The notes under the pieces: generated by a model
What the model saw: only the letters and a program-made list of their open reading frames with translations
Databases searched by the model: none
Told to the model about the DNA's origin: nothing
Position numbers and translations under genes: made by a program
Shown: positions 1,095-17,294 of the stretch, in pieces
Layout: every line of letters begins with the position of its first letter
Numbering within the stretch: the stretch's first letter is position 1
DNA from: Aerolutibacter ruishenii
Lineage (GTDB): Bacteria > Pseudomonadota > Gammaproteobacteria > Xanthomonadales > Xanthomonadaceae
DNA length: 64,000 nt
Assembly: GCF_007830115.1 (NCBI RefSeq)
Contig: NZ_VLKP01000001.1
Span: 310,001 to 374,000 of the forward strand
Direction of reading: 5' to 3'

Positions 1095-2609
1095 TCAGAG
1101 CCCGCGCGCGGCCTCGGCCACGGCGCGGAACAGCGCGCGGCCCTTGTTCATCGTCTCCTCCCACTCCTTCTGCGGGTCGGAGTCGAAGACAATGCCGGCA
1201 CCGGCCTGCACGTACAGACGGCCGTCCTGGATCACGGCGGTGCGGATGGCGATGGCGGTGTCCGCATCGCCATTGCGACCCGGTTCGCTCCAGCCCAGGT
1301 AGCCGATGCTGCCGGCATAGACATTGCGGCGCGTGGGCTCCAGTTCGCGGATCACCTCCAGCGCGCGGATCTTGGGCGCGCCGCTGACCGTGCCCGCGGG
1401 GAAGGTGGCGCGCAGCACGTCGGCGTAGCTCAGGCCGTCACGCAGCTCGCCGGTGACTTCGCTGACGATGTGCATGACGTGGCTGTAGCGTTCGATCACG
1501 AACTGTTCGCCCACTTCCACCGTGCCCGGCTTGCTGACCCGGCCGACGTCGTTGCGGCCCAGGTCGATGAGCATCAGGTGCTCGGCGCGTTCCTTGGGGT
1601 CGGCCAGCAGTTCGGCCTCGAGTGCGTCATCCTGTTCGGGCGTGGCGCCGCGCGGGCGGGTGCCGGCGATCGGGCGCACGGTCACCTCGCCGCGGCCCTG
1701 CGCGTCGTGCTGCAGGCGCACCAGGATCTCCGGCGAGGAGCCCACCACCTGCATGTCGCCCACGTCGAGGAAGTACATGTACGGCGACGGGTTGAGCGCG
1801 CGCAGGGCGCGGTACACGTCCACCGGGCGCGCCTTGAACGGCACGCTCAGGCGCTGGCTCAGCACCACCTGGAAGATGTCGCCGGCACGGATGTACTCCT
1901 TCGACTTCTCCACCGCGTCGATGAAGCCCTCGCGGGTGAATCCGCTGACGAAATCCGCTTCGTCCAGCACCTGCCCTTCCAGCGACCGGGGGTAGCCGGA
2001 GCCGCCCTGGCGCAGGCGATGCACCAGTTCATCGAGGCGGCGGTTGGCCTTGGCCAGCGCGCGCGGGTTGTTGGCTTCGGCATGCACGATCAGGTACAGC
2101 CGGCCCTTGAGGCTGTCGAAGACCGCGACCTCCTCGCTCTGCATCAGCAGGATATCGGGCGTGCCCAGTTCGTCCGGCAAGGGTCGACGCTCGTGCGCGG
2201 CAGCCAGGCGCGGCTCCAGGTACTGGATGCATTCGAAGCCGAACCAGCCGACCAGGCCGCCGGTGAAGCCCGGCAGGCCCGGCACGCGTGGCACGGAGTA
2301 CGCGGCGCGCAGGCGCTCGACCTCGGCGAAGGGGTCGTCGACGGTGCGGCTCTCGACCAGCTCACCATCCTCGGTCACGAACAGCGTGTGGCCAGCGAAG
2401 GCGTACACGCGCCTGGCCGGCAGGCCGATGATCGAATAGCGGCCGAAGCGCTCACCGCCTTCGACCGATTCAAACAGGTAGGTGTGCGGACCGTCGGCGA
2501 GCTTCAGGTACACCGACAACGGCGTGTCGAGGTCGGACAGCACCTCGCGCACGACGGGGACATGGGTGTGGCCTTCAGTGGCGTGCGGCTGCAGGGAAAC
2601 GGGGGACAT
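1095..2609 (-). CDS. trpE: Anthranilate synthase component I
   Basis: A 504-residue cytosolic enzyme that, with the TrpG glutaminase, converts chorismate and glutamine to anthranilate, the first committed step of tryptophan synthesis. The N-terminal feedback pocket is visible (LFESVEGG about residue 47). The C-terminal chorismate-binding domain carries [25 protein letters not shown] and [19 protein letters not shown] longer open frame exists, but the ATG at 2609 has AGGAA ten bases upstream and gives the usual family N terminus, so I start there. trpG, trpD and trpC are not downstream in this window, so the partner subunit must come from elsewhere. rpe lies upstream in the same direction, an order common in this bacterial group. 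Confidence 0.97.
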
Positions 2610-3013
2610 CACGCGGGAATTCCTCAAGGAGCGACGGGGCGGCGGCAACGGCGGCACGGGGCCACCATCGCCAACCCACGTTGGCCAGAAGGGAATGCGG
2701 GTCCGCCCGGGAGATCATGCGGATACTCTAGCCGTTGACGTCCGGGTCCGCGACCGTTGCGGCCGCAAACGCGGGGCCAGGCGGCATCACGATGCCGTGT
2801 TCCGGCATGTCCGGCATGTCGACGAAGCCCGGCAGCCGCACGCGACTGCCGTCGTGAACGCCTCGTCCTGTCATCATCGCGTCACGGTCGACCCGGAGCA
2901 TGGAAGGCCATAGCAGGGACGACAGGCGGGGGCGGGATTGCCCTCAGAACACACAAGGCCGGTGCCCGTGATGGGCATCGGCCTTGTACTTTGCGACACC
3001 CGGCTCGATCGGC
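2610..3013. other. Intergenic region between rpe and trpE
   Basis: About 400 bases without a convincing gene. It holds the rpe terminator hairpin (listed separately) and must hold the trpE promoter and leader. On the minus strand a 14-codon frame starting at the ATG near 2669 ends in a TGA just ahead of the trpE ribosome site, but it has no tryptophan codons, so it is not a classical attenuator peptide. A short direct repeat (ccggcatgt twice) lies near 2802-2819. I see no riboswitch. Confidence 0.5.
2953..2987 (-). terminator. Hairpin terminator downstream of rpe
   Basis: A 15-base stem (2953-2967 with 2973-2987, one G-U pair, loop of five) lies 26 bases past the rpe stop. On the minus strand it is followed by a weak T-rich run. 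It probably separates rpe from trpE. Confidence 0.75.
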
Positions 3014-3688
3014 TCAGCCGCGCACGCCGGCCACCGCTGCCCTCATCCGGCCGATGACGTCAGCGTAGTCGGGTGCGTTGAAGATGGCCGAACCAGAAAC
3101 GAAGGTGTCGGCACCGGCGGCCGCGATCTCGGCGATGTTGTCGGCCTTCACCCCGCCATCGATTTCCAGGCGGATGGGGCGGCCGACGCGGTCGATCATC
3201 TCGCGCACGCGGCGAAGCTTGTCGAGCGTGGTGGGAATGAACGCCTGCCCGCCGAAGCCCGGGTTGACCGACATCAGCAGCACCATGTCCAGCTCGCCCA
3301 GCGCCCAGTCCAGCACTTCCAGCGGCGTCGCCGGGTTCAGCACCAGGCCGGCCTGGCAGCCGTGCGACTTGATCAGCTGGATGGTGCGGTGCGCGTGGCG
3401 GCTGGCTTCCGGGTGGAAGGTGATCATGGTCGCGCCGGCCTTGGCGAAGTCCGGCACCAGCGTGTCCACCGGCTCCACCATCAGGTGCACGTCGATCGGC
3501 GCGGTGACGCCGTGTTTGCGCAGCGCCTCGCACACCAGCGGGCCGATGGTCAGGTTGGGCACGTAATGGTTGTCCATCACGTCGAAGTGCACCCAGTCGG
3601 CGCCGGCCTTCAGCACGTTGTCGACCTCCTCGCCGAGCTTGGCGAAGTTGGCCGAGAGGATGGACGGGGCGATGACGGTGGGTTGCAT
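3014..3688 (-). CDS. rpe: Ribulose-phosphate 3-epimerase
   Basis: A 224-residue TIM-barrel enzyme interconverting ribulose 5-phosphate and xylulose 5-phosphate in the pentose phosphate pathway. Family marks are [15 protein letters not shown] at the N terminus, [17 protein letters not shown] with the metal-binding histidine and catalytic aspartate, [20 protein letters not shown] and the phosphate-binding LEIDGGV with [12 protein letters not shown]. The open frame extends further upstream as a low-complexity proline-rich stretch, but the ATG at 3688 gives the standard start MQPTVIAPS. It is followed by a hairpin terminator. The phosphoglycolate phosphatase gene that often accompanies rpe is absent here. 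Confidence 0.97.
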
Positions 3689-3799
3689 GGGCGGCTCGTG
3701 GGATGGTTGCGGCGGGGTCGTGGGTGACGGCGGCTTGGGGCGTCGTCGGGTGTCGGTGGCCGAATCAGCTTCTGATGCCGGCGCAGGCAATGCGGCCGT

Positions 3800-4132
3800 T
3801 CACCGCTTGCGCAGCGTCTTGATGCGGTCGTAGGCGGCGTTGATCTCGCGCGCCTTGGCCTCGGCCTGCTCGCGCAACTCGGGGGCGGCGCCGGCCATGC
3901 GGTCGGGGTGGTACTGCGAGATCAACCGGCGGTAGGCCTGGTCGACCTCGGCGTCGCTGGCGTCGGAGGTCAGGCCGAGCGCGGCGTAGGGGTTGTCGCG
4001 GCGGAGCTTGAACCAGTCCGCGTCGAAGGCGTGGCCGATCAGCAGGCCGATCAGCGCGCCCAGCGGCGGGTTGCCGCGCAGCAGCGCGGCCCCGGCGAAG
4101 AAACCGAGCAGCTTGCCGTACCAGCGCTTCAT
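3800..4132 (-). CDS. Membrane-anchored J-domain protein (DjlA-like, short)
   Basis: A 110-residue protein. The first 35 residues are glycine-rich and hydrophobic and resemble the membrane/glycine-zipper start of DjlA-type proteins. Residues about 47-110 form a J-domain with the HPD tripeptide at 75-77, which stimulates Hsp70 ATPase. The TerB region of full-length DjlA is missing, so this is the short form. It lies upstream of rpe on the same strand with a gap of about 110 bases, and divergent from purC. It probably brings DnaK to the inner membrane face, although the client is unknown. Confidence 0.85.
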
Positions 4133-4363
4133 GCGGGGGGCCTTGCGGTCATGCGGACGGTCATGCGGAGGGCCTCTGGCCGGCCCGGATGCGGGCCACC
4201 GCGCATTTTACCTGCAACGGCGGCCCGGACCGTCGTACACTGCCCGGCCCGGTCGCGCCCGCGCGCGGGTCAAGGCCCTTCCCGGCGACACCTGCCGGCG
4301 ATCGGCGGCGATGCCAGGCGTGCTGCGGCGGGGGTCCGCGCACACCTTGTTGGGGGCTTCACG

Positions 4364-5290
4364 TTGTCCACGACCCTGCTTCAGTCCGACCTGCCTGGCC
4401 TGCCGCTCCGCCATCGCGGCAAGGTCCGCGACGTCTTCGATATCCCCGCCGACCGCCTGCCGCCGGGCACGCCGCCGGGTGATTACCTGCTGATGGTCGC
4501 CACCGACCGCCTCAGCGCGTTCGACGTGGTGCTGCCCGACCCGATCCCGGGCAAGGGCGAGATGCTGTGCCAGATCAGCAACTTCTGGTTCGCCAGGACC
4601 GCGCACATCATCCCCAACCACCTCACCGGGATCGACGTGGCCTCCGTGCTGCCAGCCGGCGTGGACCCGGCGCTGTACGCCAAGCGCGCGGTGGTCACCA
4701 AGCGGCTGAAGCCGGTGCCAGTGGAATGCATCGCCCGCGGCTACATCATCGGCAGCGGCTGGAAGGACTACCAGCGCACCGGGCGCATCAGCGGTATCAC
4801 CCTGCCCGATGGCCTGCGCCAGGCGCAGAAGCTGGCCGAACCCATTTTCACCCCGTCCACCAAGGCGGCCGTGGGCGACCACGACGAGAACATCGACTTC
4901 GATACCGCGGTCAAGCTGGTCGGGCCGGACCTGGCCGAGCAGGTGCGCGACGCCACGCTGCGCCTGTACTCGTTCGCGCGCGACTACGCGGCCGAGCGCG
5001 GCATCCTGCTGGCCGACACCAAGTTCGAGTTCGGCACCGACGCCGATGGCCGCCTGTACGTGATGGACGAAGTGCTGACGCCGGACTCCTCGCGCTACTG
5101 GCCGGCCGACGAGTACGAAGTGGGCACCAGCCCGCCCAGCTACGACAAGCAGTTCGTGCGCGACTACCTGGAGACGCTGGACTGGGACAAGACCCCGCCG
5201 GGCCCCACGCTGCCGGCCGAGGTGATCGAGCGCACCCGCGCCAAGTACGCCGAGGCGCTGCAGAAGCTGGCCGGCATCAGCGTCGACTGA
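4364..5290 (+). CDS. purC: SAICAR synthetase (phosphoribosylaminoimidazole-succinocarboxamide synthase)
   Basis: A 308-residue enzyme of the longer PurC type, joining aspartate to CAIR with ATP in purine synthesis. Conserved blocks are [49 protein letters not shown], the LADTKFEFG metal/ATP region and [15 protein letters not shown]. The protein must begin near [19 protein letters not shown], and no ATG fits there. The in-frame codon is TTG at 4364, so this is an unusual start with only a weak G-rich ribosome site. A strong hairpin terminator follows at 5317. Confidence 0.96.
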
Positions 5291-5316
5291 CCATCGGCTG
5301 CGATGCGATGCACCGG

Positions 5317-5346
5317 AAGGCGCCCTGCGAGGGGCGCCTTTCTTGT
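5317..5346 (+). terminator. Intrinsic terminator after purC
   Basis: A perfect 9-bp stem (5317-5325 with 5332-5340, loop of six) followed by TTTCTTGTT. It lies 26 bases past the purC stop. Confidence 0.9.
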
Positions 5347-5404
5347 TGGCATGACATCGGCAACCGGCACCGCGATACTCGGGGCAACGGCCCAGGAGAC
5401 AGGC

Positions 5405-5881
5405 ATGAGTACGAGCGAACGACCGATCGACCGCTGGTTCGCCCGTTATTCCGGCGACCACCGCAACCCGACCAACCAGGTGATCCACGTGGTCTGCGTG
5501 CCGGCCATCCTGTGGAGCGTGATCGCGCTGCTGTGGTGCATCCCGGCACCGGGTACGTGGTTCAAACCGGGGTTCTGGGCGGGCGTGGCCATGGTGGTCA
5601 CGGCGCTGTTCTACTACCGCCATACGCGCAAGCTGGGGCTGGGCATGGTGGCGGTGTTCGTGCTGATGGGGCTGCTGACGCGCTGGCTCTACGACACCTT
5701 TGGCGTACACACCCTGTCGTGGCTTGCGATCAGCGTGTTCGTGGTAGCGTGGATCGGCCAGTTCGTGGGCCACAAGATCGAGGGGCGCAAGCCGAGCTTC
5801 CTTACCGACGTGACCTATCTGCTGATTGGGCCCGCCTGGGTGCTGGCCAAGCTGTACCGGCGGCTGGGCTGGGCGTATTGA
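5405..5881 (+). CDS. DUF962 / Mpo1-like membrane protein
   Basis: A 158-residue protein with about four hydrophobic segments and the family features HRNPTNQVIHVVCVP near the N terminus and WIGQFVGHKIEGRKPSFLTD near the C terminus. The conserved histidines (NxxxH, GHxxEGRKP) are those of the Mpo1/YGL010w family, whose yeast member is an iron-dependent dioxygenase of 2-hydroxy fatty acids. Bacterial members are uncharacterised, so an oxidase role in lipid turnover is inference. The ATG at 5405 has AGGAGA upstream. It sits alone after the purC terminator. Confidence 0.85.
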   Translation: MSTSERPIDRWFARYSGDHRNPTNQVIHVVCVPAILWSVIALLWCIPAPGTWFKPGFWAGVAMVVTALFYYRHTRKLGLGMVAVFVLMGLLTRWLYDTFGVHTLSWLAISVFVVAWIGQFVGHKIEGRKPSFLTDVTYLLIGPAWVLAKLYRRLGWAY

Positions 5882-5972
5882 AACACCGCCGCGGCGCGCA
5901 GCCGCCCGAAGTCGCATGCTCCGGCGTGCCCATGCGAGCGCACAATAGGGCGCCGACACCGGTGGACCGTCG

Positions 5973-6869
5973 ATGCCCCCCCGCGACCTTGTCCTGATCC
6001 TGCTGGTCTGCCTGACCTGGGCAGGCAACTTCCTGACCTCCGCATTGGCGCTGCGTGAGATTCCGCCAGTGCTGTTCACCGCACTGCGGTTCGTGCTGCT
6101 GGCGGTGCCGCTGCTGTTCTTCCTAAAGCGCCCGGCGCCGGGGCAGTGGCCTCGACTGGTGGCCGTGTGCCTGCTGGTGGGGGTCCTGCATTTCGCGACC
6201 AGCTTCACCGCGCTGAAGCTGGCGGGCGACCTGTCCTCGCCCGCGATCGTGCTGCAGAGCTACGTGCCGATGACCGCGGTGCTGGCGTGGCTGGTGCTGG
6301 GCGAGCGCTTTGCGTGGCGCACCGGGCTGGCGATCGGCATCAGCTTCGTCGGCGTGCTGGTGCTGGGCCTGGACCCGATGGTGCTGGACCGTCCTGCCGC
6401 GCTGGTGATGATGCTGGTGTCGGCGTTCTTCCTGGCACTGGGCACGGTGTTGATGAAGGGCCTGCGCGGGCTGGATGCTTTCAGCCAGCAGGGCTGGACC
6501 GCACTGATAAGCGTGGTGCCGTTGCTGGCGGCCAGTGCAGTGCTGGAACCCGGCGCCATCGCCCGCCTGCCCGAGGCCAGCTGGGTGGCCTGGGCCGGCG
6601 CGCTGTACGCCGCCTTCCTGTCGTCGCTGGTGGGCCATGGCCTGTACTACGTGCTGGTGCAGCGGCATCCAGTGGCACAGGTGACGCCGTGGCTGCTGCT
6701 GGTGCCGGTGCTGGCGGTGGGGCTCGGCATCGCGTTCTGGGGCGACCGCCCGGGGCCGCGGTTGTTCATCGGCGGCGCGATGGTGCTGGGCGGCGTGCTG
6801 GTGATCGCGCTGCGCACGCTGGCGAAGGCGCGGTTGGCCAACACGCGCACCGGACGCGAGGCCCGCTAG
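5973..6869 (+). CDS. EamA/DMT-family transporter
   Basis: A 298-residue membrane protein with ten predicted helices arranged as two EamA repeats. The first repeat begins near LVCLTWAGNF, and the second begins near VMMLVSAFFLALG. GLALREIPPVLFTALRF and SSLVGHGLYYVLVQ are typical of the drug/metabolite transporter superfamily, which usually exports amino acids or metabolites from the inner membrane. The substrate cannot be read from the sequence. It is convergent with the epimerase gene, with 36 bases between the stops. Confidence 0.9.
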   Translation: MPPRDLVLILLVCLTWAGNFLTSALALREIPPVLFTALRFVLLAVPLLFFLKRPAPGQWPRLVAVCLLVGVLHFATSFTALKLAGDLSSPAIVLQSYVPMTAVLAWLVLGERFAWRTGLAIGISFVGVLVLGLDPMVLDRPAALVMMLVSAFFLALGTVLMKGLRGLDAFSQQGWTALISVVPLLAASAVLEPGAIARLPEASWVAWAGALYAAFLSSLVGHGLYYVLVQRHPVAQVTPWLLLVPVLAVGLGIAFWGDRPGPRLFIGGAMVLGGVLVIALRTLAKARLANTRTGREAR

Positions 6870-6905
6870 CGGCTTCCACGCCCACGCCGTGGCGTGGCGG
6901 CGCGC

Positions 6906-7784
6906 TCAGTCCGCGGCGTCGCCCGCGCGCGGCTCGAACATCTCCGCAGTGGGGCGGAACGCGCGTGGCGCATAGCCGAAATCGCGCGCGGCGGGGGCGA
7001 CATCGAACACCAGGTCGCTGCGCATGCGCCGCACGGCGGCCTCGCCCAGGCCGGTGGCGCTCCCGGTGAGCTGGGCCACGAAAAGCGCCGTGGTGAACAG
7101 CGGCGATGGCAGTTCGACCAACCGCGGCGCTGGCTGCAGCGTGGCCAACACGCGCGCGACCATCTCGCGATAGGGCAGCGTTTCGCCGCCGGGTAATGCG
7201 TAGGCGCGCCCTCGCGCAACTTCCGTGGCGACACAATCCAGGGCCGCCTGCGCGAGGTCTACCACGTGCACCGGCTGGCGCAGGCCACCGGCATTGCGTG
7301 GCAACGGGAATCGCCCCCAGCGCCGGGCCAGCACCGCGATCCGGGTCAGGGTGGCGTCACGCCCCGCGCCGTAGACCAGCGTCGGCCGCAGGATCGTGGC
7401 GCCCGCATGCCGCTGCCGGGCCGCGTCGAACACCGCCGCCTCACCGTCGCGCAGGCGACGCGCCACGTCACGCTCGTGGGCATCGGCGGAACCCAGCTTG
7501 GTGTCCGCGCTGGTGGAGCCGAACGCGACCACGCGACCGCACGCCAGGTCCGATGTGGCGTACCAGCGCGCGAACGCATCCAGCGGGCCACAACTGAAAA
7601 TCGCGTCGACCTGCGCGGGCAACGCGGGCATGCGGCCGAAATCGCCCCGCAGCCACGCCAGGCCCGGCCGGTCAGGCTGTGGATCACGCGACAGCGCGGT
7701 CACCCGCCACTCCGCCCGCGACAAGCCGGCAAGCAACGGACGACCGATCTGCCCGGAGGCGCCAAACACCAGTGCATGCCGCAT
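6906..7784 (-). CDS. NAD-dependent epimerase/dehydratase-like protein (extended SDR fold)
   Basis: A 292-residue Rossmann protein. The N terminus LVFGASGQIGRPLLAGL is the GxxGxxG nucleotide-binding loop, followed by a typical SDR core with FSCGP and LRPTLVYGAGRD. A clear YxxxK catalytic pair is not obvious (the region has YATSD), so it may be an atypical member that binds NAD(P)H without classical catalysis, as in NmrA-like or YeeZ-like proteins. It starts three bases after the nhaA stop, so the two are cotranscribed. The link to sodium/proton exchange is unclear. Confidence 0.8.
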   Translation of the reverse strand: MRHALVFGASGQIGRPLLAGLSRAEWRVTALSRDPQPDRPGLAWLRGDFGRMPALPAQVDAIFSCGPLDAFARWYATSDLACGRVVAFGSTSADTKLGSADAHERDVARRLRDGEAAVFDAARQRHAGATILRPTLVYGAGRDATLTRIAVLARRWGRFPLPRNAGGLRQPVHVVDLAQAALDCVATEVARGRAYALPGGETLPYREMVARVLATLQPAPRLVELPSPLFTTALFVAQLTGSATGLGEAAVRRMRSDLVFDVAPAARDFGYAPRAFRPTAEMFEPRAGDAAD

Positions 7785-7787
7785 GGT

Positions 7788-9020
7788 TCAGGCCCGGGGC
7801 GGTGAGGGCGGCAGCACCGCGCGCAACCACAGGAAACCCAGCGTGGCGGCAATCACAGACGCGCCCAGGATGCCGAGCACCGCCTCCTCGTACAGCCTTG
7901 GGTCCTGGTAGGCGAGTGAGGCAATGAACAGGCTCATGGTGAAGCCGATGCCGCACATCATGCCCAGGCCCAGCATCGCGCGCAGGTCCATGCCCGCGGG
8001 GAAGCGCGCCCAGCCGAGCGCGCGCATCAGCACCGCGGCACCGACAATGCCGATCGGCTTGCCCACCACCAGCCCCAGCACCACGCCCAGCGGCAGCGCC
8101 GCCTGGGCATCGGCCAGGCTCAGCCCCCCCAGGTACAGACCGGCGTTGGCGAAGGCGAACACCGGCAGGATGACGTAGGCAACCCACGGATGCAGCGCGT
8201 GCTCGAGGTGTTCCAGCGGCGAGTGCTCGATTTCGTCGGGGATGTCGTTGTGCTTGTTGACGTGGGGAATCATCAGGCCCGTGGCCACGCCCGCCAGGGT
8301 GGCGTGCACGCCCGACTTGAGCACGCACACCCACAGCACCGCGCCCAGCAACAGGTACGGAGCCAGCCGCGTCACGCCACGACGGTTGAGCAACCACATG
8401 CCCGCCAGCGCGGCACCGGCCCACGCCAACGCAGCCAGCGACAGGCCGTGCGAGTAGAACAACGCGATGATCAGGATGGCGATGAGGTCATCGACCACCG
8501 CGATGGTGGAGAGCAGCAGCTTCATCCCCACCGGCACGCGCGAGCCCAGCAACCCCAGCGCACCCAGGGCGAAGGCGATGTCGGTGGCGGTGGGCACGGC
8601 CCAGCCACGCATGGCCTGGGCATCGCCATGGTTGAGCGCGGTGAACAGCAGCGCCGGGACGGCCACGCCCGCACTGGCGCACACCAGCGGCAGCACCAGC
8701 TGGTCACGCCCGGCCAGTTGTCCGCTGAGCGTTTCGCGCTTGATCTCCAGCGCCACCAGCAGGAAGAAGATGGCCATGAGGCCATCGTTGATCCACAGCA
8801 CCGCGGGCTTGGCGATGTCCAGCGCGCCCACCCGCACCTCCACCGGCATGTCGCGGAAGGCGTCGTAGGCCTCATTCAGGGGCGAGTTGGCGAAGATCAG
8901 CGCCAGCAGGGCCGCGCCAATGAGCATGATGCCGCCGGCGGCTTCGAGCCGGAAGAACTCCCCGAGGGCCTGCAGCGCGCGCACTGGCACCGATGGGGTA
9001 TGCACGGTCGAATCGGTCAT
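7788..9020 (-). CDS. nhaA: Na+/H+ antiporter NhaA
   Basis: A 410-residue inner-membrane antiporter that exchanges internal sodium for external protons, for pH and salt homeostasis. It shows the family blocks FFRLEAAGGIMLIGAALLALIFANSPL, LKIKRETLSGQL-like ALEIKRETLSGQLAG, GWAVPTATDIAFALG with the paired aspartate, and STIAVVDDLIAILIIALFY with the second essential aspartate pair. The ATG at 9020 is chosen because it begins a normal short N terminus, although the frame extends 14 codons further. It is the first gene of a two-gene unit and divergent from the chemoreceptor gene. Confidence 0.96.
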   Translation of the reverse strand: MTDSTVHTPSVPVRALQALGEFFRLEAAGGIMLIGAALLALIFANSPLNEAYDAFRDMPVEVRVGALDIAKPAVLWINDGLMAIFFLLVALEIKRETLSGQLAGRDQLVLPLVCASAGVAVPALLFTALNHGDAQAMRGWAVPTATDIAFALGALGLLGSRVPVGMKLLLSTIAVVDDLIAILIIALFYSHGLSLAALAWAGAALAGMWLLNRRGVTRLAPYLLLGAVLWVCVLKSGVHATLAGVATGLMIPHVNKHNDIPDEIEHSPLEHLEHALHPWVAYVILPVFAFANAGLYLGGLSLADAQAALPLGVVLGLVVGKPIGIVGAAVLMRALGWARFPAGMDLRAMLGLGMMCGIGFTMSLFIASLAYQDPRLYEEAVLGILGASVIAATLGFLWLRAVLPPSPPRA

Positions 9021-9119
9021 TCGCGGAGTATACCGGCCACCTGCATCGGCCCGGTGTTTCACCGGTAGCCGCCCGGTACCCGCAACCGTACGCTAGGCCC
9101 TCGTCCGAGGGCCATGGAA

Positions 9120-10943
9120 ATGACTTTGTCGCTGCTGTCGCTCGTCGACCCACTTGCCGCGATTGGATTGGCCCGCGATAGAAGAAGGGCCAACCACCAG
9201 TCGTCGCAGATCGTCGAGAACGCCAGTGCCTGCATCATGGTCTCGGACGCCGACGGCATCATCGTATCCATGAACGCCGCGCTGCGAGCGCTGTTCCTGG
9301 AGACGGCGGACGATATTCGCCAGCAATATCCGTTCTTCGACCCGGCGAAGCTGATCGGCACATCGTTCGACGTCTTTCACGCCGATCCTGGGCACCAATG
9401 CAACCTGCTGCGCTCGCTCACGGCCCGTCACGTGGCGCGAATCCGTATCGCGGCACGCACTTTCCAACTGGTCGTCACGCCGCTCCGTGATGATGCAGGC
9501 CTCACCACCGGCTACGCGGTGGAATGGACCGACCTGACGCCACTGCTGGCGGTCAGCCAACGCGAAACCCGGTTCCGCTGCGCCCTGGACAACATGAGCA
9601 CGAAGCTGATGATCGCCGACGCCGACGGCGCGATCGTCTACCTCAATCACGCATTGCTCAGGATGTTCCGGCGCTGCGGCGGGGCACTCCGGGAACGCTT
9701 CCCCGGCTTCGATCCCGACCACCTCATCGGTCGCAACATCGACCTCTTTCACCGCCGCCCCGAACACCAGCGCGCAGCGCTCCGCGAGCGCGTTGGCAGG
9801 ATACCGGCAACCATCGAAGTGGCCGGGACCAGGCTTGAGCTGGAGGCGATGGCCATCCGCGACGCCGACGGGACCTACCAGGGCGCCTTCGTGGTCTGGG
9901 ACGACATCAGCGCGGTCCATTCGCTGCTGGGTGATGTGGCCGCCGGCGAACTCGGGACCCGTCTTGAAAGCGAGCACTTCGATGGCAGCATGCGGCGGCT
10001 TGCTGAACTCCTGAACCAGGTGATGGAAACCATTTCGGCACCGATCGACAACGCGGTTCGAACGGTCGGCGCGCTATCGACCGGCGACCTTACGGCCAGG
10101 ATGGGCGACAACGGCCGCGTGCTGCACGGCGCTTATCTGGACCTGCAAGACAGTCTGAATCGCTCGATTGAATCGCTTGCCGGGATCGTCGGCAGCATCC
10201 AGACCGCCGCACGTTCGGTGCATCAAGCCGCCGGTGATATCTCCGAAGGAAGCGCCGAACTCAGCGAACGTTCGGAGCGGCAAGCTGCGGCAGTCAGGGA
10301 GTCGGTGTCCGATGTCGCCGAGGTCACCGCCATCTCGCACGTCAACGCCGAACGCCTCACGGCCGCATCGACCAGCGCCACCGGGATCTCCCGGGATGCC
10401 CAGGCGGGTGCCGCACTGGTCCGGGACATGGCAACGGCGATGCGGCAGATCCACGCGGAGAACAACCAGGTCAACGAGTTCCTGGCACAGATCGAGGCAA
10501 TCGCGTTCCAGACCAACCTGCTGTCCTTGAACGCCGCCGTTGAAGCAGCCAGGGCGGGAGTCGACGGCAAGGGGTTTGCCGTGGTCGCCAGCGAGGTACG
10601 GGCACTGTCGCAGCGCTGCACCGAGTCGGCCCGCCATATCCGGCAGTTCGTCGAGTCTTCGGTCAGGACGGTGACGCAGGGGCGCCGCCTGTCGACTGAG
10701 GCCAGTGCCCGGATCGAGCAGATCGTGGATTCAGTGCAGGCGCTCGACGCGTCGTTGCATGAAATTTCCCGCAATGGGATCGAGCAGCAGGCCAAGGCCA
10801 GGCATATTGGAGAGGTAACGGCACAGATCGACGCCATTACCCGGCAGAACGGGGTTCTGGCGGAGCAGACCGCGGTTTCGGCAAGGTCGCTGCAGGGACT
10901 TGCGGCCCAGTTGCTATCCCGAACCGGCGAATTCCGCACCTGA
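9120..10943 (+). CDS. Soluble methyl-accepting chemotaxis protein with two PAS domains
   Basis: A 607-residue chemoreceptor without convincing transmembrane helices. Residues about 30-140 and 150-270 are two PAS-type sensor domains of similar layout (each has FDPxxLIG and a FH-x-PxHQ segment). A HAMP-like linker follows, then a signalling hairpin with the tip QIEAIAFQTNLLSLNAAVEA and GFAVVASEVRALSQRCTESA. It should form cytoplasmic arrays that control CheA. The ATG at 9114 is only two bases from GAGGG while the ATG at 9120 is eight away, so I start at 9120. Ten to thirteen bases separate its stop from the globin-diguanylate cyclase gene, suggesting one operon and one stimulus. Confidence 0.92.
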   Translation: MTLSLLSLVDPLAAIGLARDRRRANHQSSQIVENASACIMVSDADGIIVSMNAALRALFLETADDIRQQYPFFDPAKLIGTSFDVFHADPGHQCNLLRSLTARHVARIRIAARTFQLVVTPLRDDAGLTTGYAVEWTDLTPLLAVSQRETRFRCALDNMSTKLMIADADGAIVYLNHALLRMFRRCGGALRERFPGFDPDHLIGRNIDLFHRRPEHQRAALRERVGRIPATIEVAGTRLELEAMAIRDADGTYQGAFVVWDDISAVHSLLGDVAAGELGTRLESEHFDGSMRRLAELLNQVMETISAPIDNAVRTVGALSTGDLTARMGDNGRVLHGAYLDLQDSLNRSIESLAGIVGSIQTAARSVHQAAGDISEGSAELSERSERQAAAVRESVSDVAEVTAISHVNAERLTAASTSATGISRDAQAGAALVRDMATAMRQIHAENNQVNEFLAQIEAIAFQTNLLSLNAAVEAARAGVDGKGFAVVASEVRALSQRCTESARHIRQFVESSVRTVTQGRRLSTEASARIEQIVDSVQALDASLHEISRNGIEQQAKARHIGEVTAQIDAITRQNGVLAEQTAVSARSLQGLAAQLLSRTGEFRT

Positions 10944-10956
10944 TCGGCGACGGAGC

Positions 10957-13185
10957 ATGGAGTTTCCCGGATCGGAATGGGCCTCGATCTCAATCGACGA
11001 GCATGAGTTGCAGCTTCGCAAGCGGTTCCTGGGCTTGTCGAGCGACGATGCGACGACGTTGGAAGCCCTGCGCGAAATCGTGGGCGCCAACCACCAGATG
11101 TTCGTCGACGACTTCTATGACCACTTGTCCACGTTCGAGGAAACCGCCAAGCACATCAGCGAGGACGAAACGCTCGCCCGGCTCAAACGCGCCCAGCATC
11201 GCTATGCCGTCGAGCTCCTCTCGGGGAACTACGACCTGGACTATGCGCGCAACCGCCTGCAGGTCGGCTTCGTCCACCATCGGATCGGTCTTGCGCCCCA
11301 TCTCTACCTCGCCGCGTGCGGCCGGCTGATCACCGGCATCGCCCGGTCATTGCCTTCCCTTTTCCAGGAGGGGCAACCCAAGGGTGCGGAGGCACTGATC
11401 GCGCTGGTCCGCGTGTTGATGCTCGACGTGGGATTTGCCATGGACGCGTACGTCCACGCCGACCGCAAGGCCTTGGCGGACACCGTTGCTTCCCTCCGGG
11501 ACAGCCAGAGTCGACTGGCCGAATCGCAGGAACTGGCGCAACTGGCCCACTGGGAGCTGGTGCCTGAAAGCGGGGAATTGCGTGCCTGCGCACGCACCCT
11601 GGAGTTGCTATGCATGGATCCGACAAGCGCCCTGCCGGCGCAGGACCGGCTGCGCCAATGGATCCATCCCGACGATCGGCGCATGGTGGACGACGCGCTG
11701 GAAAGCGCAATGACGTCGGACGCGACGTACGACATCCGCTATCGCGTCGAATGCGTCGATGGCCGGCGTTATGCCCTGCGTGAGCGGGGGCGCGCCTTGC
11801 GGGATCCGGACGGCAGGACGCTGCGGGTGATCGGCGTGATTCAGGACATCTCGTTGCAGTCCGCCCAGCTGTCCCGCATTGAACAGCTTGCGCACTTCGA
11901 CAACCTTACCGGGCTACCCAACCGCGCGCACTTCTATGCCGCATTGGATCGGGCAATCTCCGCCTGCATGCAGAACGGCGGTTCTTTTTCGCTGCTCTTC
12001 ATCGACCTGGACAACTTCAAGGACATCAACGACACGAAGGGCCATGGCATTGGCGACCTCGCCCTCGTCGAGATAGCGAAACGGATCAAGGGATACCTGA
12101 GATCGCAGGACCTGGTCGCGCGACTTGGCGGCGATGAGTTTGTGGTACTGGCGGAAAGGACCGACGCGGCCGCGGCGAGGAAACTGGCAATGGCGATCGT
12201 CGAATGCCTCACGCCTGCGATCTGGGTCCGCGGCGAAGCGTTCCGCATGAAAGCAAGCATAGGGATTTCAAGCTACCCGCTCGACGGCGAGGACAGCGAG
12301 CGTCTCGTCCGGAACGCCGACACCGCGATGTACGCCGCGAAACGCTCGCGCAGCGGGATCGAAGCCTATCGCGCGGACATGAGCCGTCGGCTTGAACGGA
12401 GGATCGACATGGCCAGTCGCCTCGACCAGGCGCTCAGGCACGGCGAACTGCAACTTCATTACCAACCGCAGGTTCGGCTCGACGACGGCGGGATCGTCGG
12501 CATGGAGGCGCTTCTCCGCTGGCACGACACTGAACTTGGCTGGATCAGGCCCGACGAGTTCATTCCGCTTGCCGAGGAGCGCGGGATGATCGATGCCGTG
12601 GGCGATTTCGTCGTGGGACAGGCCTGCGCGCAGATTCGCGCCTGGCGGGGGGCAGGCCTTCTGCTTCCCGGCCGGTTGGCGCTGAACATATCGGCGATGC
12701 AGCTGGACGCAGACACATTTTCCGAACGCCTCATCACGGCCGTGACGCGGGCAGGCCTGAGCCCCACGGAATTCGACCTTGAGCTGACGGAAAGCGGCAT
12801 CATGGTCGACCCCGTCCGGTCGTTGGCCATCATGAAGTTGTTGAAGGCCGCCGGGTTCTCGCTTTCGGTTGACGACTTCGGGATGGGCTATTCCTCGCTG
12901 TCGCACCTCAAGGGCTTCCCCTTCGACAAGATCAAGTTGGACGGAAGCTTCGTCCAAGGAATGCTCACCGACCGGAGCGACTACGCGATCGTGATGGCGA
13001 CCGTGACCATGGCCCGCAACCTGGGACTGCAACTGGTCGCCGAAGGCGTCGAGACAGCGGATCAGGCCGTCGCACTCAAGTCGATAGGCTGCGAGCTCGC
13101 GCAGGGTTTCCTCTACGGCCGGGCTTGCCCTCCGGAAGTATTCGCTGCCCGATGGCTGCAATCGGCGCCAGCTGCTGGTCACTGA
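10957..13185 (+). CDS. Globin-coupled sensor diguanylate cyclase/phosphodiesterase (globin-PAS-GGDEF-EAL)
   Basis: A 742-residue cyclic-di-GMP enzyme. Residues about 15-165 form a sensor globin with the proximal-histidine motif RLQVGFVHHRIGL (His107, with a second histidine beside it), as in HemAT and DosC. A PAS domain follows (about 195-300). The GGDEF domain has an intact GGDEF at 391-395 and an RxxD inhibitory site (RSQD) five residues before it. The EAL domain has EAL at 517-519, ELTESG, DDFGMGYSSL and AEGVETADQ. Both activities could therefore be live, with synthesis feedback-inhibited. By family knowledge the globin binds oxygen through haem. The gene follows the chemoreceptor by 13 bases. 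The start is set by the ATG at 10957 although its ribosome site is weak. Confidence 0.94.
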   Translation: MEFPGSEWASISIDEHELQLRKRFLGLSSDDATTLEALREIVGANHQMFVDDFYDHLSTFEETAKHISEDETLARLKRAQHRYAVELLSGNYDLDYARNRLQVGFVHHRIGLAPHLYLAACGRLITGIARSLPSLFQEGQPKGAEALIALVRVLMLDVGFAMDAYVHADRKALADTVASLRDSQSRLAESQELAQLAHWELVPESGELRACARTLELLCMDPTSALPAQDRLRQWIHPDDRRMVDDALESAMTSDATYDIRYRVECVDGRRYALRERGRALRDPDGRTLRVIGVIQDISLQSAQLSRIEQLAHFDNLTGLPNRAHFYAALDRAISACMQNGGSFSLLFIDLDNFKDINDTKGHGIGDLALVEIAKRIKGYLRSQDLVARLGGDEFVVLAERTDAAAARKLAMAIVECLTPAIWVRGEAFRMKASIGISSYPLDGEDSERLVRNADTAMYAAKRSRSGIEAYRADMSRRLERRIDMASRLDQALRHGELQLHYQPQVRLDDGGIVGMEALLRWHDTELGWIRPDEFIPLAEERGMIDAVGDFVVGQACAQIRAWRGAGLLLPGRLALNISAMQLDADTFSERLITAVTRAGLSPTEFDLELTESGIMVDPVRSLAIMKLLKAAGFSLSVDDFGMGYSSLSHLKGFPFDKIKLDGSFVQGMLTDRSDYAIVMATVTMARNLGLQLVAEGVETADQAVALKSIGCELAQGFLYGRACPPEVFAARWLQSAPAAGH

Positions 13186-13220
13186 GCTGCACGTGCGACG
13201 GCATGCCGAACGCCTATTCC

Positions 13221-13958
13221 TCAGTGCGCGGCGATGGTGGGCAGCCAATGCCCTTGCCGCCAGCGCATGCTCGCGTAGGCCAGCGAAGCCGTGTTATCCA
13301 ACCCGAGCTTTTCCTTGATCCGGCTACGGTAGTACTCCACCGTCTTGACGGAAAGAGCGAGCTTTGCCGCAATCTCGCTGGGGCCGACGCCCTCGCCCAC
13401 CAGCAGGAACACATCCAACTCCCTTGGGGTCAAGGGCAGCTTGGGCTTTTGCAGCGTCGCCTTGAGCGGACAGTGGTCGCATGGCCCTGCATCCGGTTGG
13501 CGCCGATTGCAGGTGACAAGCTGCCTGAGGGCCTGGCGGACTTCGGGATCCCCGGCGGACTCACTCAACATGCCGCAGGCACAGACAAGGTCGGGCAGTT
13601 CGCCCTCGCCCACGTGATGCCTTGGCGTGACGAGCAGGACCCGTGGCCGGGTCTCGCTGCTCGCGAATGCCGCCCTGAACGCACCGCTCCGATCCAGGTC
13701 CGGGTCCAGAAGCAAGCAATCCACGGCATTGTTCCCGGACTGCGCGATGACCTTCCATGGATCCTGGTCGGACAAGCAACGGTCGACTTCCGGCATTGCG
13801 CGCAACAGACGGAACAGGCCCTCGCGGACAAGCGGTTTGGTCACGGCAACGAAGGCGTTGATGGTTCCCGCGCCGGTCGTCACTGCCGGAGACGCTCCTG
13901 CGCGCGCGCGCAGCCCACCAACGCTCTCGTCCCCTGACGCCCTCTTCACCGCGATCAT
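13221..13958 (-). CDS. LuxR-family regulator with degenerate receiver and cysteine-rich linker
   Basis: A 245-residue DNA-binding protein. Residues about 34-115 match a response-regulator receiver around KPLVREGLFRLL, but the acidic pair before it is lost (the place reads VAVTK), while Asp85 and Thr111 are kept. It is thus probably not phosphorylated in the usual way. The linker holds Cys126, Cys128, Cys150, Cys160 and Cys163, which could bind a metal or iron-sulfur cluster or act as a redox switch. Residues about 175-232 are a LuxR-type HTH (LTPRELDVFLLV ... SVKTVEYYRSRIKEKL). It is convergent with the globin gene, 35 bases apart. GAGGA lies directly before the ATG, so the GTG three codons downstream could be the true start. 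Confidence 0.88.
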   Translation of the reverse strand: MIAVKRASGDESVGGLRARAGASPAVTTGAGTINAFVAVTKPLVREGLFRLLRAMPEVDRCLSDQDPWKVIAQSGNNAVDCLLLDPDLDRSGAFRAAFASSETRPRVLLVTPRHHVGEGELPDLVCACGMLSESAGDPEVRQALRQLVTCNRRQPDAGPCDHCPLKATLQKPKLPLTPRELDVFLLVGEGVGPSEIAAKLALSVKTVEYYRSRIKEKLGLDNTASLAYASMRWRQGHWLPTIAAH

Positions 13959-14164
13959 TCCTCATTCATCGGCGGGTCCGCTGGAAATTCTTGCCGCCGC
14001 CAGAACCTGCCAGGTCCTTGTAGCACGCCGCGAGCAGCAGCGCCTATTGGAAGAAGCCTCATTGTCCGCTGACTTTGTTACCGTTGGCGCGAGGCACGGC
14101 CCCCGACCATGCAGGGGCCATGGCTCATGACCTGGCATGCGGCGCCACGCCTCATCGGCCGGGC

Positions 14165-15118
14165 TCAGTGCTGGATCATCACCAGCTCGAACGCCACCCA
14201 CCCCAACAGTGCCACCATCAGCGTGCCGCCCTCTCGCCTGCTCACGCGCAGGTCGCCACGCAGCATCGGCACCATCATCAGGGCAAACACCAGCGCCGAC
14301 GGCAGCTCGAAGCGCACGAACGACGCGGGCAGCGGCAGCGGGTTGAACACCGCCATGCCGCCCAACACCAGCAACACGTTGCACAGGCTGGAGCCGATGA
14401 CATGCCCGGCGACCAGGTCGCCCTGTCCGCGGCGTGCGGCGGTGATCGCGGCGGCCATTTCGGGCAGGGCGGTGCCGATAGCCACCGGCAGCAGCCCGGT
14501 GAGCAGCGGGCCCATGCCCAGGCCGGCGCCCAGCACCGGCGCGTGGGCCACCACCAGGCGCGATCCGTAGTACAGCAGCACCACGGCAAGCACGAAGCGC
14601 ACGATGTTCAATGCCAGGTCGCTGCGGGTACGGGCAAACGCCTCGATTTCCGCCTGCAGATCCGGCGTTTCGTTGCGGCCGCGCACCAGCGCGAACGCCA
14701 CCACGGCGACGAACGCGACCAGCAGCACCAGGCCATCGCCGCGCGAGAGCACGCCATCGAGCCCCAACCCCATGACCGCCAGAGTGCCCAGCAGCAGCAC
14801 CAGCAACAGCGGCGACAGGGCGCGCCAGTGCACCAGCAACGGCGCGGCGAACGCGGCCGCGCCCAGCGTCAGGCCGACGTTGACCACGTTGCTGCCCACC
14901 GCATTGCCCAGGGCCAACGACTGCTGGCCGCGCACGATGGCCTGCCCGTTGACCGCCAGCTCCGGCAGCGACGTGGCGAAGGCCACCAGCAGCAGGCCGG
15001 TGGTGAAGGGCGTCAGTCCCAGGCGCTGCGCCAGCCCCGAGGCGCCCTTCACGATGGAATCCCCGCCCAGTGCGAGCAGCACCAGGCCCAACAGGAACAT
15101 GCCAACGGCAGTGAGCAT
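14165..15118 (-). CDS. Calcium/sodium antiporter (CaCA family, YrbG-like)
   Basis: A 317-residue inner-membrane protein with about ten helices in two inverted repeats. The alpha-repeat motifs are clear: ATSLPELAVNGQA with GNAVGSNVVNVGLTLG in the first half, and GTALPEMAAAITA with GHVIGSSLCNVLLVLG in the second. These contain the ion-binding glutamates and asparagines. It exchanges sodium or protons against calcium or related ions. The open frame runs far upstream, but the ATG at 15118 has GGAGGAAGG at good spacing and starts the first helix MLTAVGMFLLGLVLLA. It is divergent from the next gene. Confidence 0.93.
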   Translation of the reverse strand: MLTAVGMFLLGLVLLALGGDSIVKGASGLAQRLGLTPFTTGLLLVAFATSLPELAVNGQAIVRGQQSLALGNAVGSNVVNVGLTLGAAAFAAPLLVHWRALSPLLLVLLLGTLAVMGLGLDGVLSRGDGLVLLVAFVAVVAFALVRGRNETPDLQAEIEAFARTRSDLALNIVRFVLAVVLLYYGSRLVVAHAPVLGAGLGMGPLLTGLLPVAIGTALPEMAAAITAARRGQGDLVAGHVIGSSLCNVLLVLGGMAVFNPLPLPASFVRFELPSALVFALMMVPMLRGDLRVSRREGGTLMVALLGWVAFELVMIQH

Positions 15119-15280
15119 TGTCCTTCCTCCCCTAGGGTGACAGGGGATTCTAAGCCGGCGCCGGTGGCGGATGCGCCCCCCTGACGACCGGCGCGGGCCC
15201 GGCTCCGGAAATGGGCATGTCATCACGCATTCATACGGCCTGCCTATCGTGCAGTGGGCCTGACCATGGAGGACCACTCG

Positions 15281-15964
15281 ATGCTGCTGGCGAAGACCGA
15301 CAAGGCCCGCACGGCCATCCAGAACCGCGATGCAGGCCTGACCGCGCAAGAGCGCCACATCCTGATCGTCAGCAACGGCCAGCGCAGCCTCAACGACATC
15401 GTGTCGATGCTCGGCCCGGCGATATTGGCGTCCATCGACCGGCTGCTGCGGGACGGCTACCTGCAGCCCGCCGCAGCGGAACGCACGGTGGACGGCTTGG
15501 CCTCGACGAGCCAGGGGATGCATGCCCTGCTGCGGGCATCCCGCGACCTTGCCAGCAAGGTGCAGGAGCGCGCGCACGTCGTCATCGAGGCTGCCACCAC
15601 GGCAGCGGCGCCACCGCCGACGTCATTCCCGGCCGAGCCCGTGGCAACGCTGCCCACGCCACCCGCCGCGCCGCGCGTTGGCCCGCGACGATCGCTGGCT
15701 GCGGCCAAGATGTACATGCTGGACATGCTGCAACTGCAGCGCAGTAGCGAGGCTGCCTCGCTCAAGCTGGCGATCCAATCCAGCAGCAGTGGCGAGGAGA
15801 TCCTGGGCAGCCTCATCGACAGCCTGCGCCACCTGCGCGATGTCGCCACGGCCTCCTATTACGACCGCGTCGCCATGCGCTTGGGCGAGGTGCTCCCCGA
15901 GGAATTCGTGCCGCACCTCGCCGCTGCGATGCGGGTGGACACGGCGGCCTCCAGCGCAGCCTGA
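15281..15964 (+). CDS. Uncharacterised protein with winged-helix-like N terminus
   Basis: A 227-residue protein I do not recognise. Residues 1-60 (KARTAIQNRDAGLTAQERHILI then VSMLGPAILASIDRLLRDGYL) look like a small winged-helix fold of the type that scores presence or absence of a 'zero growth' signal in other regulators. A proline/alanine-rich linker follows (about 105-135), then a helical C-terminal domain with KMYMLDMLQLQRSSEAASLKL and LIDSLRHLRDVA. The ATG at 15281 has GGAGG eight bases upstream; two earlier ATGs lack such a site. It is divergent from the Ca/Na antiporter. A regulatory or scaffold role is only inference. Confidence 0.75.
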   Translation: MLLAKTDKARTAIQNRDAGLTAQERHILIVSNGQRSLNDIVSMLGPAILASIDRLLRDGYLQPAAAERTVDGLASTSQGMHALLRASRDLASKVQERAHVVIEAATTAAAPPPTSFPAEPVATLPTPPAAPRVGPRRSLAAAKMYMLDMLQLQRSSEAASLKLAIQSSSSGEEILGSLIDSLRHLRDVATASYYDRVAMRLGEVLPEEFVPHLAAAMRVDTAASSAA

Positions 15965-15965
15965 A

Positions 15966-15983
15966 GCCGGCGACAACGCCGGC
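15966..15983. terminator. Short hairpin between convergent genes
   Basis: A perfect 7-bp GC stem with an ACAA loop, lying directly between two converging stops (15964 and 15993). There is no T-run, so it is at best a weak bidirectional terminator. Confidence 0.4.
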
Positions 15984-15992
15984 GCCACGGGT

Positions 15993-17294
15993 TCAGGCCG
16001 GCGCGCGGAAGTGTTTCACCAGCCCCGCCCAGCATGCCTGGTATTCGCGCTGGCGGTGCGATGCCGCGATCGCCTGCGCCGTCGGCCGGATCACCGCGCG
16101 CGTCTCGAACATGAAGGCCATCGTGTCGCTGATGTAATCGGGCTGGCTGAGGTCGGCGCTGCTGGCCTTCTCGAACGTGGCCGCATCCGGGCCGTGGCCA
16201 GTCATGCTGTTGTGCAGCGAGCAGCCGCCCGGCACGAAGCCCTCGGCCTTGGCGTCGTAGGCGCCGTGCACCAGGCCCATGAACTCGCTGGCGATGTTGC
16301 GGTGGAACCAGGGCGGTCGGAACGTGTCCTGCATCGCCAGCACGCGCGGCGGGAAGATCACGAAGTCCATGTTGCTCACGCCCTCGCTGTCGCTGGGCGA
16401 ATGCAGCACCAGGAAGATCGACGGGTCCGGGTGGTCGTGGCTGATCGAGCCGATGGCGTTGAAACGGCGCAGGTCGTACTTGCACGGCGCGTAGTTGCCA
16501 TGCCAGCCAACCACGTCCAGCGGTGAGTGGCCGATATAGGCGCGCCACAGGTGGCCCTGGAACTTGGCGACCAGCTCGAAATCGCCTTCCACGTCCTCGT
16601 AGGCCGCATTCGGGATCTGGAAATCGCGCGGGCTGGCCAGGCCGTTGCTGCCGATCACGCCCAGGTCGGGCAGCTTGAGCATCGCACCGAAGTTCTCGCA
16701 CATGTAGCCGCGCGCCTCGCCGTCGGGCAGCGACACGCTGAAACGCACGCCGCGCGGGATCAACGCGATTTCCTGCGGCTCCACGTCCAGTACGCCCATC
16801 TCGGTCTCGATGTGCAGGCGCCCGTGTTGCGGCACGATCAGCAGCTCGCCGTCGGCGTCGTAGAACCAGCGCCCCTGCATGTCGCGATTGGCGGCGTACA
16901 GGTGGATGCCCACGCCGGCCTGCGCGGCAGACCCGCCATTGCCCGCCATGGTGAACAGCCCATCGATGAGATCGGTGGGCGCCGAAGGCGCGGGCAGCGG
17001 GTTCCAGCGCAGTTGCTCCGGCGTGACCGGTCCGGTGCCAAAGTCGTTGTGGAAGCGCGGCTGCTCAAAGGACTTGAACTCGCCATGCACCGCCGACGGA
17101 CGGATACGGTACAGCCAGCTGCGGCGGTTGGCATGGCGCGGCGCGGTGAATGCCGTACCCGTCAGCTGTTCGGCATACAGGCCGTGCGCCACGCGCTGCG
17201 GCGAATTGCGCCCCACCGGCAGCGTGCCGGCGATCGCCTCGGTGGCGAACTCGTTGCCGAAACCCGTCTGGTAGCCGTTGCTGCTGATCGCCAT
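15993..17294 (-). CDS. hmgA: Homogentisate 1,2-dioxygenase
   Basis: A 433-residue non-haem iron enzyme that opens the ring of homogentisate to maleylacetoacetate in phenylalanine/tyrosine breakdown. Typical stretches are [19 protein letters not shown] at the N terminus, [18 protein letters not shown], and the iron-site region near [27 protein letters not shown] with [10 protein letters not shown]. Length is normal for the family. It lies 17 bases downstream of hppD in the same direction, so both are one transcript. The next pathway enzymes (maleylacetoacetate isomerase, fumarylacetoacetase) are not in the window. Confidence 0.97.

Follow-up and report, generated by a model that had tools for sequence, protein, structure and literature searches.

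A 64,000-nucleotide stretch of the Aerolutibacter ruishenii genome (NCBI RefSeq assembly GCF_007830115.1, contig NZ_VLKP01000001.1, positions 310,001 to 374,000, forward strand; hereafter the window, whose own numbering is used) was analyzed around a cassette of three signalling genes. The first, at 9114–10943 on the forward strand, encodes a soluble Aer2-like chemoreceptor (methyl-accepting chemotaxis protein, MCP) of 609 residues with the architecture PAS-PAS-HAMP-MCPsignal, assigned from Pfam, Aer2 PAS structures, NCBIfam and hydropathy. It is followed on the same strand, at 10957–13185, by a gene for a globin-coupled cyclic di-GMP (c-di-GMP) enzyme of 742 residues, Protoglobin-PAS-GGDEF-EAL, assigned from Pfam, a globin alignment and motifs. 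The third gene, at 13221–13958 on the reverse strand, encodes a LuxR/NarL-type regulator of 245 residues, in which the receiver is degenerate and four cysteines are conserved, recognized from its GerE domain and alignments. Open reading frame (ORF) calls and Pfam bear out the positions and orientations given in a preliminary description of this DNA. The globin gene starts 13 nt after the stop of the chemoreceptor gene, with an ATG at 10957 and GGAG immediately 5' of it, and it converges with the LuxR gene, 35 nt separating the two stop codons. Consensus scans for promoters and terminators at the cassette returned one promoter-like and three terminator-like sites, not above the level of shuffled sequences, and none was convincing.

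The chemoreceptor contains the Pfam domains PAS_4, PAS, HAMP_2 and MCPsignal, and no membrane span was found by hydropathy (top 19-residue Kyte-Doolittle mean of 1.45). The PDB matches covering its PAS region are 3VOL, 4HI4 and 6CEQ, with E values per PAS domain from 4e-13 to 2.4e-23. By sequence, PAS1 matches the Aer2 haem PAS structures 4HI4 (E = 2.4e-23) and 3VOL (E = 1.1e-22), and PAS2 matches 3VOL (E = 4.8e-20) and the V. cholerae structure 6CEQ (E = 8.1e-20). Both domains carry the haem-histidine motif FHxxPxHQ, as FHADPGHQ in PAS1 (His89 and His94) and FHRRPEHQ in PAS2 (His213 and His218), aligned with FHKNPAHQ of Aer2. The strand tryptophan of the WTD/WDD motif is conserved as well, Trp138 of PAS1 and Trp262 of PAS2 aligning with that of Aer2, and the conserved last-strand tryptophan has a functional role in Aer2 PAS domains. 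H234 of Aer2 is taken here to be one of the histidines of the FHxxPxHQ motif.

H234 is the haem ligand of Aer2 according to PMC13401364, where P. aeruginosa Aer2 is also given one PAS domain flanked by five HAMP domains, whereas the window chemoreceptor has two PAS domains and, by Pfam, one HAMP. The top NCBIfam match of the chemoreceptor is the vibrio Aer2 model (E = 2.6e-117, 393 bits with a cut-off of 1200 bits), and the protein is a relative of vibrio Aer2 below the equivalog score. It shares with V. cholerae Aer2 and P. aeruginosa Aer2/McpB the haem-histidine motif, the tryptophan position and a HAMP followed by the MCP domain, but it differs from vibrio Aer2 in this score and in adjoining a globin enzyme gene. 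V. cholerae Aer2 is reportedly a dual PAS-haem receptor, going by the title of the 2018 work of Greer-Phillips, and would thus be a precedent for such a protein. The window chemoreceptor is predicted to be a haem sensor through both of its PAS domains.

In the globin-coupled enzyme, Pfam finds Protoglobin, PAS_3, GGDEF and EAL, the N-terminal protoglobin domain scoring 116.8 bits (curated cut-off of 25). In an alignment including HemAT, AfGcHK and other globin domains, Tyr54 and His107 align with HemAT residues that we take to be the distal tyrosine and the proximal histidine, respectively. The motifs RSQD-LVARL-GGDEF (RxxD plus GGDEF), EALLRW, LNIS, ELTES, VDDFG, DKIKLD, VAEGVET and AQGFLYG were all found, and they presumably include the catalytic residues. 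Since the GGDEF, RxxD and EAL motifs are intact, both synthesis and hydrolysis are possible, and the enzyme may be capable of both diguanylate cyclase and phosphodiesterase activity. It is, in addition, a predicted haem gas sensor. Roles for the distal tyrosine and proximal histidine pair in globin-coupled sensors are described in PMC10882959, which also reports that DcpG of Paenibacillus dendritiformis, a globin protein with GGDEF and EAL domains, is phosphodiesterase-active in the O2 form and diguanylate cyclase-active in the NO form. DcpG has the nearest layout, a globin sensor joined to both GGDEF and EAL, but the window enzyme has a PAS domain between globin and GGDEF.

The regulator has a GerE domain by Pfam, placed after a receiver-like domain as in NarL/FixJ-type regulators. 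Its cysteine-rich linker, pointed out in the preliminary description, is real, with cysteines at positions 61, 81, 126, 128, 150, 160 and 163, those at 128, 150, 160 and 163 being conserved in its family. Four cysteines were found at these aligned columns in 23 of 28 family members and in none of 20 ordinary NarL-type controls, the 28 members not being independent of each other (e.g., L119/L120, L124/L129 and three from genome G462). The cysteines of locus L126, mis-cut in the 28-member alignment, were scored from separate alignments. Among the exceptions, the third cysteine is displaced in three members (G099, G066 and G022), the P. suwonensis member is frameshifted with its first cysteine in a different frame, and the G074 member is without the last cysteine. 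An ordinary regulator (L216, G413), a fragment (L215, G112) and the short frame fragments L129_9230 and L127_4656 were excluded from these 28 members and from the 27 regions considered below.

The receiver acid pair DD is absent from all family members readable there, seven of which retain one Asp, and the receiver lysine is absent from all members readable at that column, while the pair and the lysine are present in 20 of 20 controls. The window regulator has VTK where the controls have DDH and has lost the lysine, the Asp at the phospho position being retained. Judged from the alignments, the four-cysteine relatives form a subfamily apart from ordinary NarL-type regulators. Since the acid pair and the lysine were lost and four cysteines gained, phosphorylation of the family receivers is unlikely, and a cysteine centre would be the natural input. 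NCBIfam gave best matches far below cut-off, to the GacA/UvrY model (47 of 280 bits) and the MctR model (44 of 300 bits). NarL/FixJ-type response regulators, the nearest known kind, include BldM and WhiI, which PMC4125116 describes as orphan and atypical.

A class-level search for the family in 274 genomes was passed only by the source genome and by G763, whose match (L245) is without the cysteines. Within the sampled genomes, the family thus seems limited to the order of the source genome, which includes Pseudoxanthomonas. In the open-access literature, no paper was found on a LuxR family with an iron-sulfur (Fe-S) cluster and a pseudo-receiver, nor a title on such a regulator; going by this literature and by the Pfam and NCBIfam scans, the family is apparently undescribed.

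Neighbours within 6 kb of the regulator were recorded for 27 four-cysteine regions and 19 control regions, control L259, which had no LuxR anchor, being dropped from this count and kept among the 20 alignment controls. A protoglobin enzyme gene was present in 4 of the four-cysteine regions, a GGDEF/EAL gene in 11 and an MCP gene in 3. At least one of the three types occurred in 13 of the 27, versus 0 of 19 control regions, a contrast rather than a statistical test, the control regulators belonging mostly to a few orthologous groups. Recurrent cluster genes were also seen, of the GTPase/Roadblock/ABC-phosphatase kind in 16 regions and for a ferredoxin-reductase-truncated-globin protein in 6. 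With these included, 24 of the 27 regions have a neighbour and three have none (L131, L132 and L211, the last on a 3.2-kb contig), but the contrast is partly circular, the cluster-gene queries having been chosen from four-cysteine loci. A second four-cysteine copy in the source genome (G000:C4) adjoins a cluster of ABC-phosphatase, GTPase, Roadblock and 2Fe-2S/FAD/NAD-reductase-truncated-globin genes, the fused truncated globin being confirmed by Pfam at this locus and at four further loci. In G056 and G083, the four-cysteine regulator lies near PAS-type chemoreceptors (Pfam-checked in G056), which we take to resemble Aer. In a tree, the regulators paired with globin enzymes group with the c-di-GMP-paired G099 regulator and two variants (support of 0.88) and are separate from the remaining regulators except that of G298 (0.84); the place of the window regulator inside the group is weak (0.33).

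As a tentative proposal, held at somewhat less than even confidence, the family would consist of 'pseudo-response regulators' that rely on a four-cysteine Fe-S or metal centre instead of phosphorylation. They would be dedicated to gas-sensing modules, one branch facing globin-coupled c-di-GMP enzymes tail to tail and another divergent from the GTPase/Roadblock/ferredoxin-reductase-truncated-globin cluster. With this family it can be tested directly whether regulators of the receiver type are able to replace phosphorylation by such a centre. A less probable reading, though one to be taken seriously, is that zinc bound by the four cysteines has a structural part, and that the regulator senses no redox state and binds DNA constitutively or under the control of a protein. 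A CxxC with two spaced cysteines is also a common zinc layout, and no structure supports an Fe-S site: the AlphaFold2 model of the regulator, built from two sequences, was unusable, with a mean predicted local distance difference test (pLDDT) score of 47 and values below 50 over residues 65–170. The repeated globin, ferredoxin-reductase and taxis neighbours of the family argue the other way, as does the loss of the receiver acid pair and lysine, because a regulator without them needs another input.

A plain thiol-disulfide switch without metal, as in PedR of Synechocystis, appears improbable. PedR is a redox-responsive LuxR-type regulator, and the NCBIfam PedR model does match the window regulator, in the DNA-binding domain only; this domain and the idea of cysteine-based redox control are what the two have in common. 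According to PMC13421787, however, PedR acts through one cysteine, Cys80, with an intermolecular disulfide and thioredoxin, whereas in the window family four cysteines are conserved together, which fits a centre better.

The cassette lies between nhaA (Na_H_antiport_1 by Pfam; 7788–9062, reverse strand) on its left and a Na/Ca exchanger family gene (by Pfam; 14165–15289, reverse strand) on its right, both outside it. The inserted block spans approximately 9034–14160 and has no strand; its extent was set from the empty sites (L295/L296) and low GC3 (G+C content at third codon positions), with edges judged by eye and breakpoints that are not base-exact. nhaA was searched in 12 genomes, and the two that have it (G020 and G074, of two other genera) both show an empty site. 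There, the nhaA and exchanger genes adjoin each other, their matches about 40–45 nt apart, and all three cassette genes are absent. The order purC, 5303 gene, EamA, SDR, nhaA, exchanger, hmgA, hppD, marR is kept in both (several names given by eye). Aligning the block edges locally with the empty sites gave an ambiguous result. A match of 9 bp, GGGCCATGG, present at 9109 and 14115 and considered as a target-site repeat, was judged compatible with chance.

Composition sets the three genes apart too. GC3 is 0.788, 0.796 and 0.788 for the MCP, globin and LuxR genes, versus a mean of 0.879 (sd 0.044) for the 49 other called ORFs, among which low-GC3 genes may be missing, since the ORF caller required GC3 to exceed the second-position value (GC2). 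The three rank 2–4 of 52, even with one of them on the opposite strand. Acquisition of the three genes as one block, by a single lateral event, would be the simplest reading; the composition is harder to reconcile with loss of the trio in two genera.

Of 297 genomes of the same family, 4 have the globin and four-cysteine genes tail to tail (the source genome G000, G135, G154 and G241); the gene ends lie up to 35 nt apart or overlap by as much as about 25 nt. Compared with the window proteins, those of the other three pairs are about 49–62% (globin enzyme, in aligned pieces) and 36–39% (regulator) identical, and no further flanking gene of the window was found at their loci. This low identity without common flanks suggests that the pairing outlasted much divergence. 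Frameshifts, either sequencing errors or signs of decay, were noted in the globin enzyme genes of L121 and L127 (G135 and G154), and in G154 in the regulator gene also. The preliminary description had proposed a conserved neighbourhood as a check, and this was answered in part: the pair recurs, but the whole trio, searched in family and class genomes, was found in the source genome only.

The recurrence of the pair bears on whether the trio is a chance grouping of common signalling genes. Such genomes are rich in MCP, GGDEF/EAL and LuxR genes, and the whole trio was seen once, but the empty site in two other genera, the common GC3 anomaly, the recurrent globin-LuxR pair and the lack of protoglobin, GGDEF/EAL or MCP neighbours at all 19 control regulators make chance a very improbable explanation. 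The grouping noted in the preliminary description is confirmed, and the case for it is better than was put there.

More serious is the reading in which the globin enzyme and the four-cysteine regulator are the meaningful pair and the chemoreceptor, also an O2 sensor, was carried along in the same block and has a separate role in taxis. Three further genomes have the pair without the MCP, and relatives of the MCP, present in 22 other class-level genomes, had no protoglobin or LuxR match at any of the 20 loci examined (those of G524 and G760 were not fetched). At two of these loci, L277 and L290, a GGDEF gene lies some kilobases off. On the other hand, the MCP and globin genes are 13 nt apart on one strand, have a common GC3 and are jointly absent at the empty site, and the link to taxis recurs where the four-cysteine regulator lies beside PAS-type chemoreceptors in G056 and G083. 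A passenger chemoreceptor is thus considered possible but rather unlikely.

With slightly better than even confidence, the block is instead read as a laterally acquired cassette that senses O2/NO through haem and acts on motility, c-di-GMP and transcription. In the cytosolic chemoreceptor, the two Aer2-type PAS domains would bind haem b, and binding of O2 (or NO/CO) would be passed through HAMP to CheA and the flagella. Such taxis outputs exist, given 7 MCP-domain, 4 CheA dimerisation-domain and 2 flagellin matches in the source genome. The globin enzyme, probably on the same transcript as the chemoreceptor, would read the same gas through its protoglobin haem, and gas binding would shift its balance between synthesis by GGDEF and hydrolysis by EAL and so the level of c-di-GMP. 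The regulator, its phosphorylation pocket lost, would turn redox or NO/O2 state into transcription through the four-cysteine centre beside its DNA-binding domain, this centre being a metal or Fe-S site rather than, less likely, a plain disulfide switch. One gas signal could then set swimming, surface attachment and gene expression via one transferable unit, in which an aerotaxis receptor and a c-di-GMP enzyme, both haem-based, are joined by a transcription factor with a cysteine centre.

The common stimulus suggested in the preliminary description is thereby supported in some respects and not in others. One apparent insertion and one composition make the genes a unit, haem gas sensing is predicted for two of the three proteins, and members of the LuxR family often have globin, c-di-GMP or taxis genes as neighbours. 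The likeness of both chemoreceptor PAS domains to Aer2, a point absent from the preliminary description, further strengthens the idea, but the whole trio is not conserved. Besides the limits attached above to the neighbour contrast, the control regulators, the GC3 ranking and the AlphaFold2 model, and the 0 of 20 MCP-relative loci, several findings weigh against the cassette reading. Common arrival of three genes does not prove a common stimulus. Among the genomes searched (297 of the family and 20 class-level loci), the MCP stands beside the globin or LuxR genes in the source genome only, and in family genomes the best MCP matches have 29–43% identity and cover part of the query. Both the globin gene and the MCP are missing, at the search thresholds applied, from G005, a genome of the same genus. 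The globin enzyme type was followed in seven genomes (G000, G083, G112, G135, G154, G171 and G241), not a full census, protoglobins of other layouts being left aside, and in three of them no LuxR gene is adjacent (G083, G171 and G112, where the globin gene is split). Finally, an FNR-type operator, TTGAT-N4-ATCAA with two mismatches, had no match at either cassette promoter and was ruled out there.

FNR-like palindromes with up to two mismatches were otherwise frequent, 18 being found in the window versus 4.9 expected from shuffles; two of them, at 10984 and 12016, fall within the globin gene.

At L126 (G099:C58:9500-28000), positions 6457–9716, a GGDEF-EAL gene is convergent with a four-cysteine regulator gene. 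It has GDDEF instead of GGDEF, and its N-terminus aligns weakly to the globin region, without the proximal histidine. A haem-less descendant of the globin-LuxR pair is a possible interpretation. The pair adjoins genes that resemble nitrate-reductase genes (named by eye).

The cassette is absent from the nhaA slot of G005 too. At this locus, L300 (G005:C1:14500-34000), the slot holds a Mnh/Mrp-like multisubunit antiporter operon (10893–16753, named by eye), one antiporter type being exchanged for another at the same site.

The cluster beside the second regulator copy of the source genome, L125 (G000:C4:126000-145000), extends over about 2539–9732 and comprises an ABC-DSP-phosphatase fusion, a winged-helix gene, a small GTPase, Roadblock-type genes and the 2Fe-2S/FAD/NAD reductase-truncated globin, divergent from that regulator. 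No paper on the combination of roadblock, truncated hemoglobin and ferredoxin was found in the open-access literature. Clusters like it are present in other families of the order, and the reductase-truncated-globin protein (3931–5463) ends in a cysteine-rich C-terminal tail with CxxCH and CxxC motifs.

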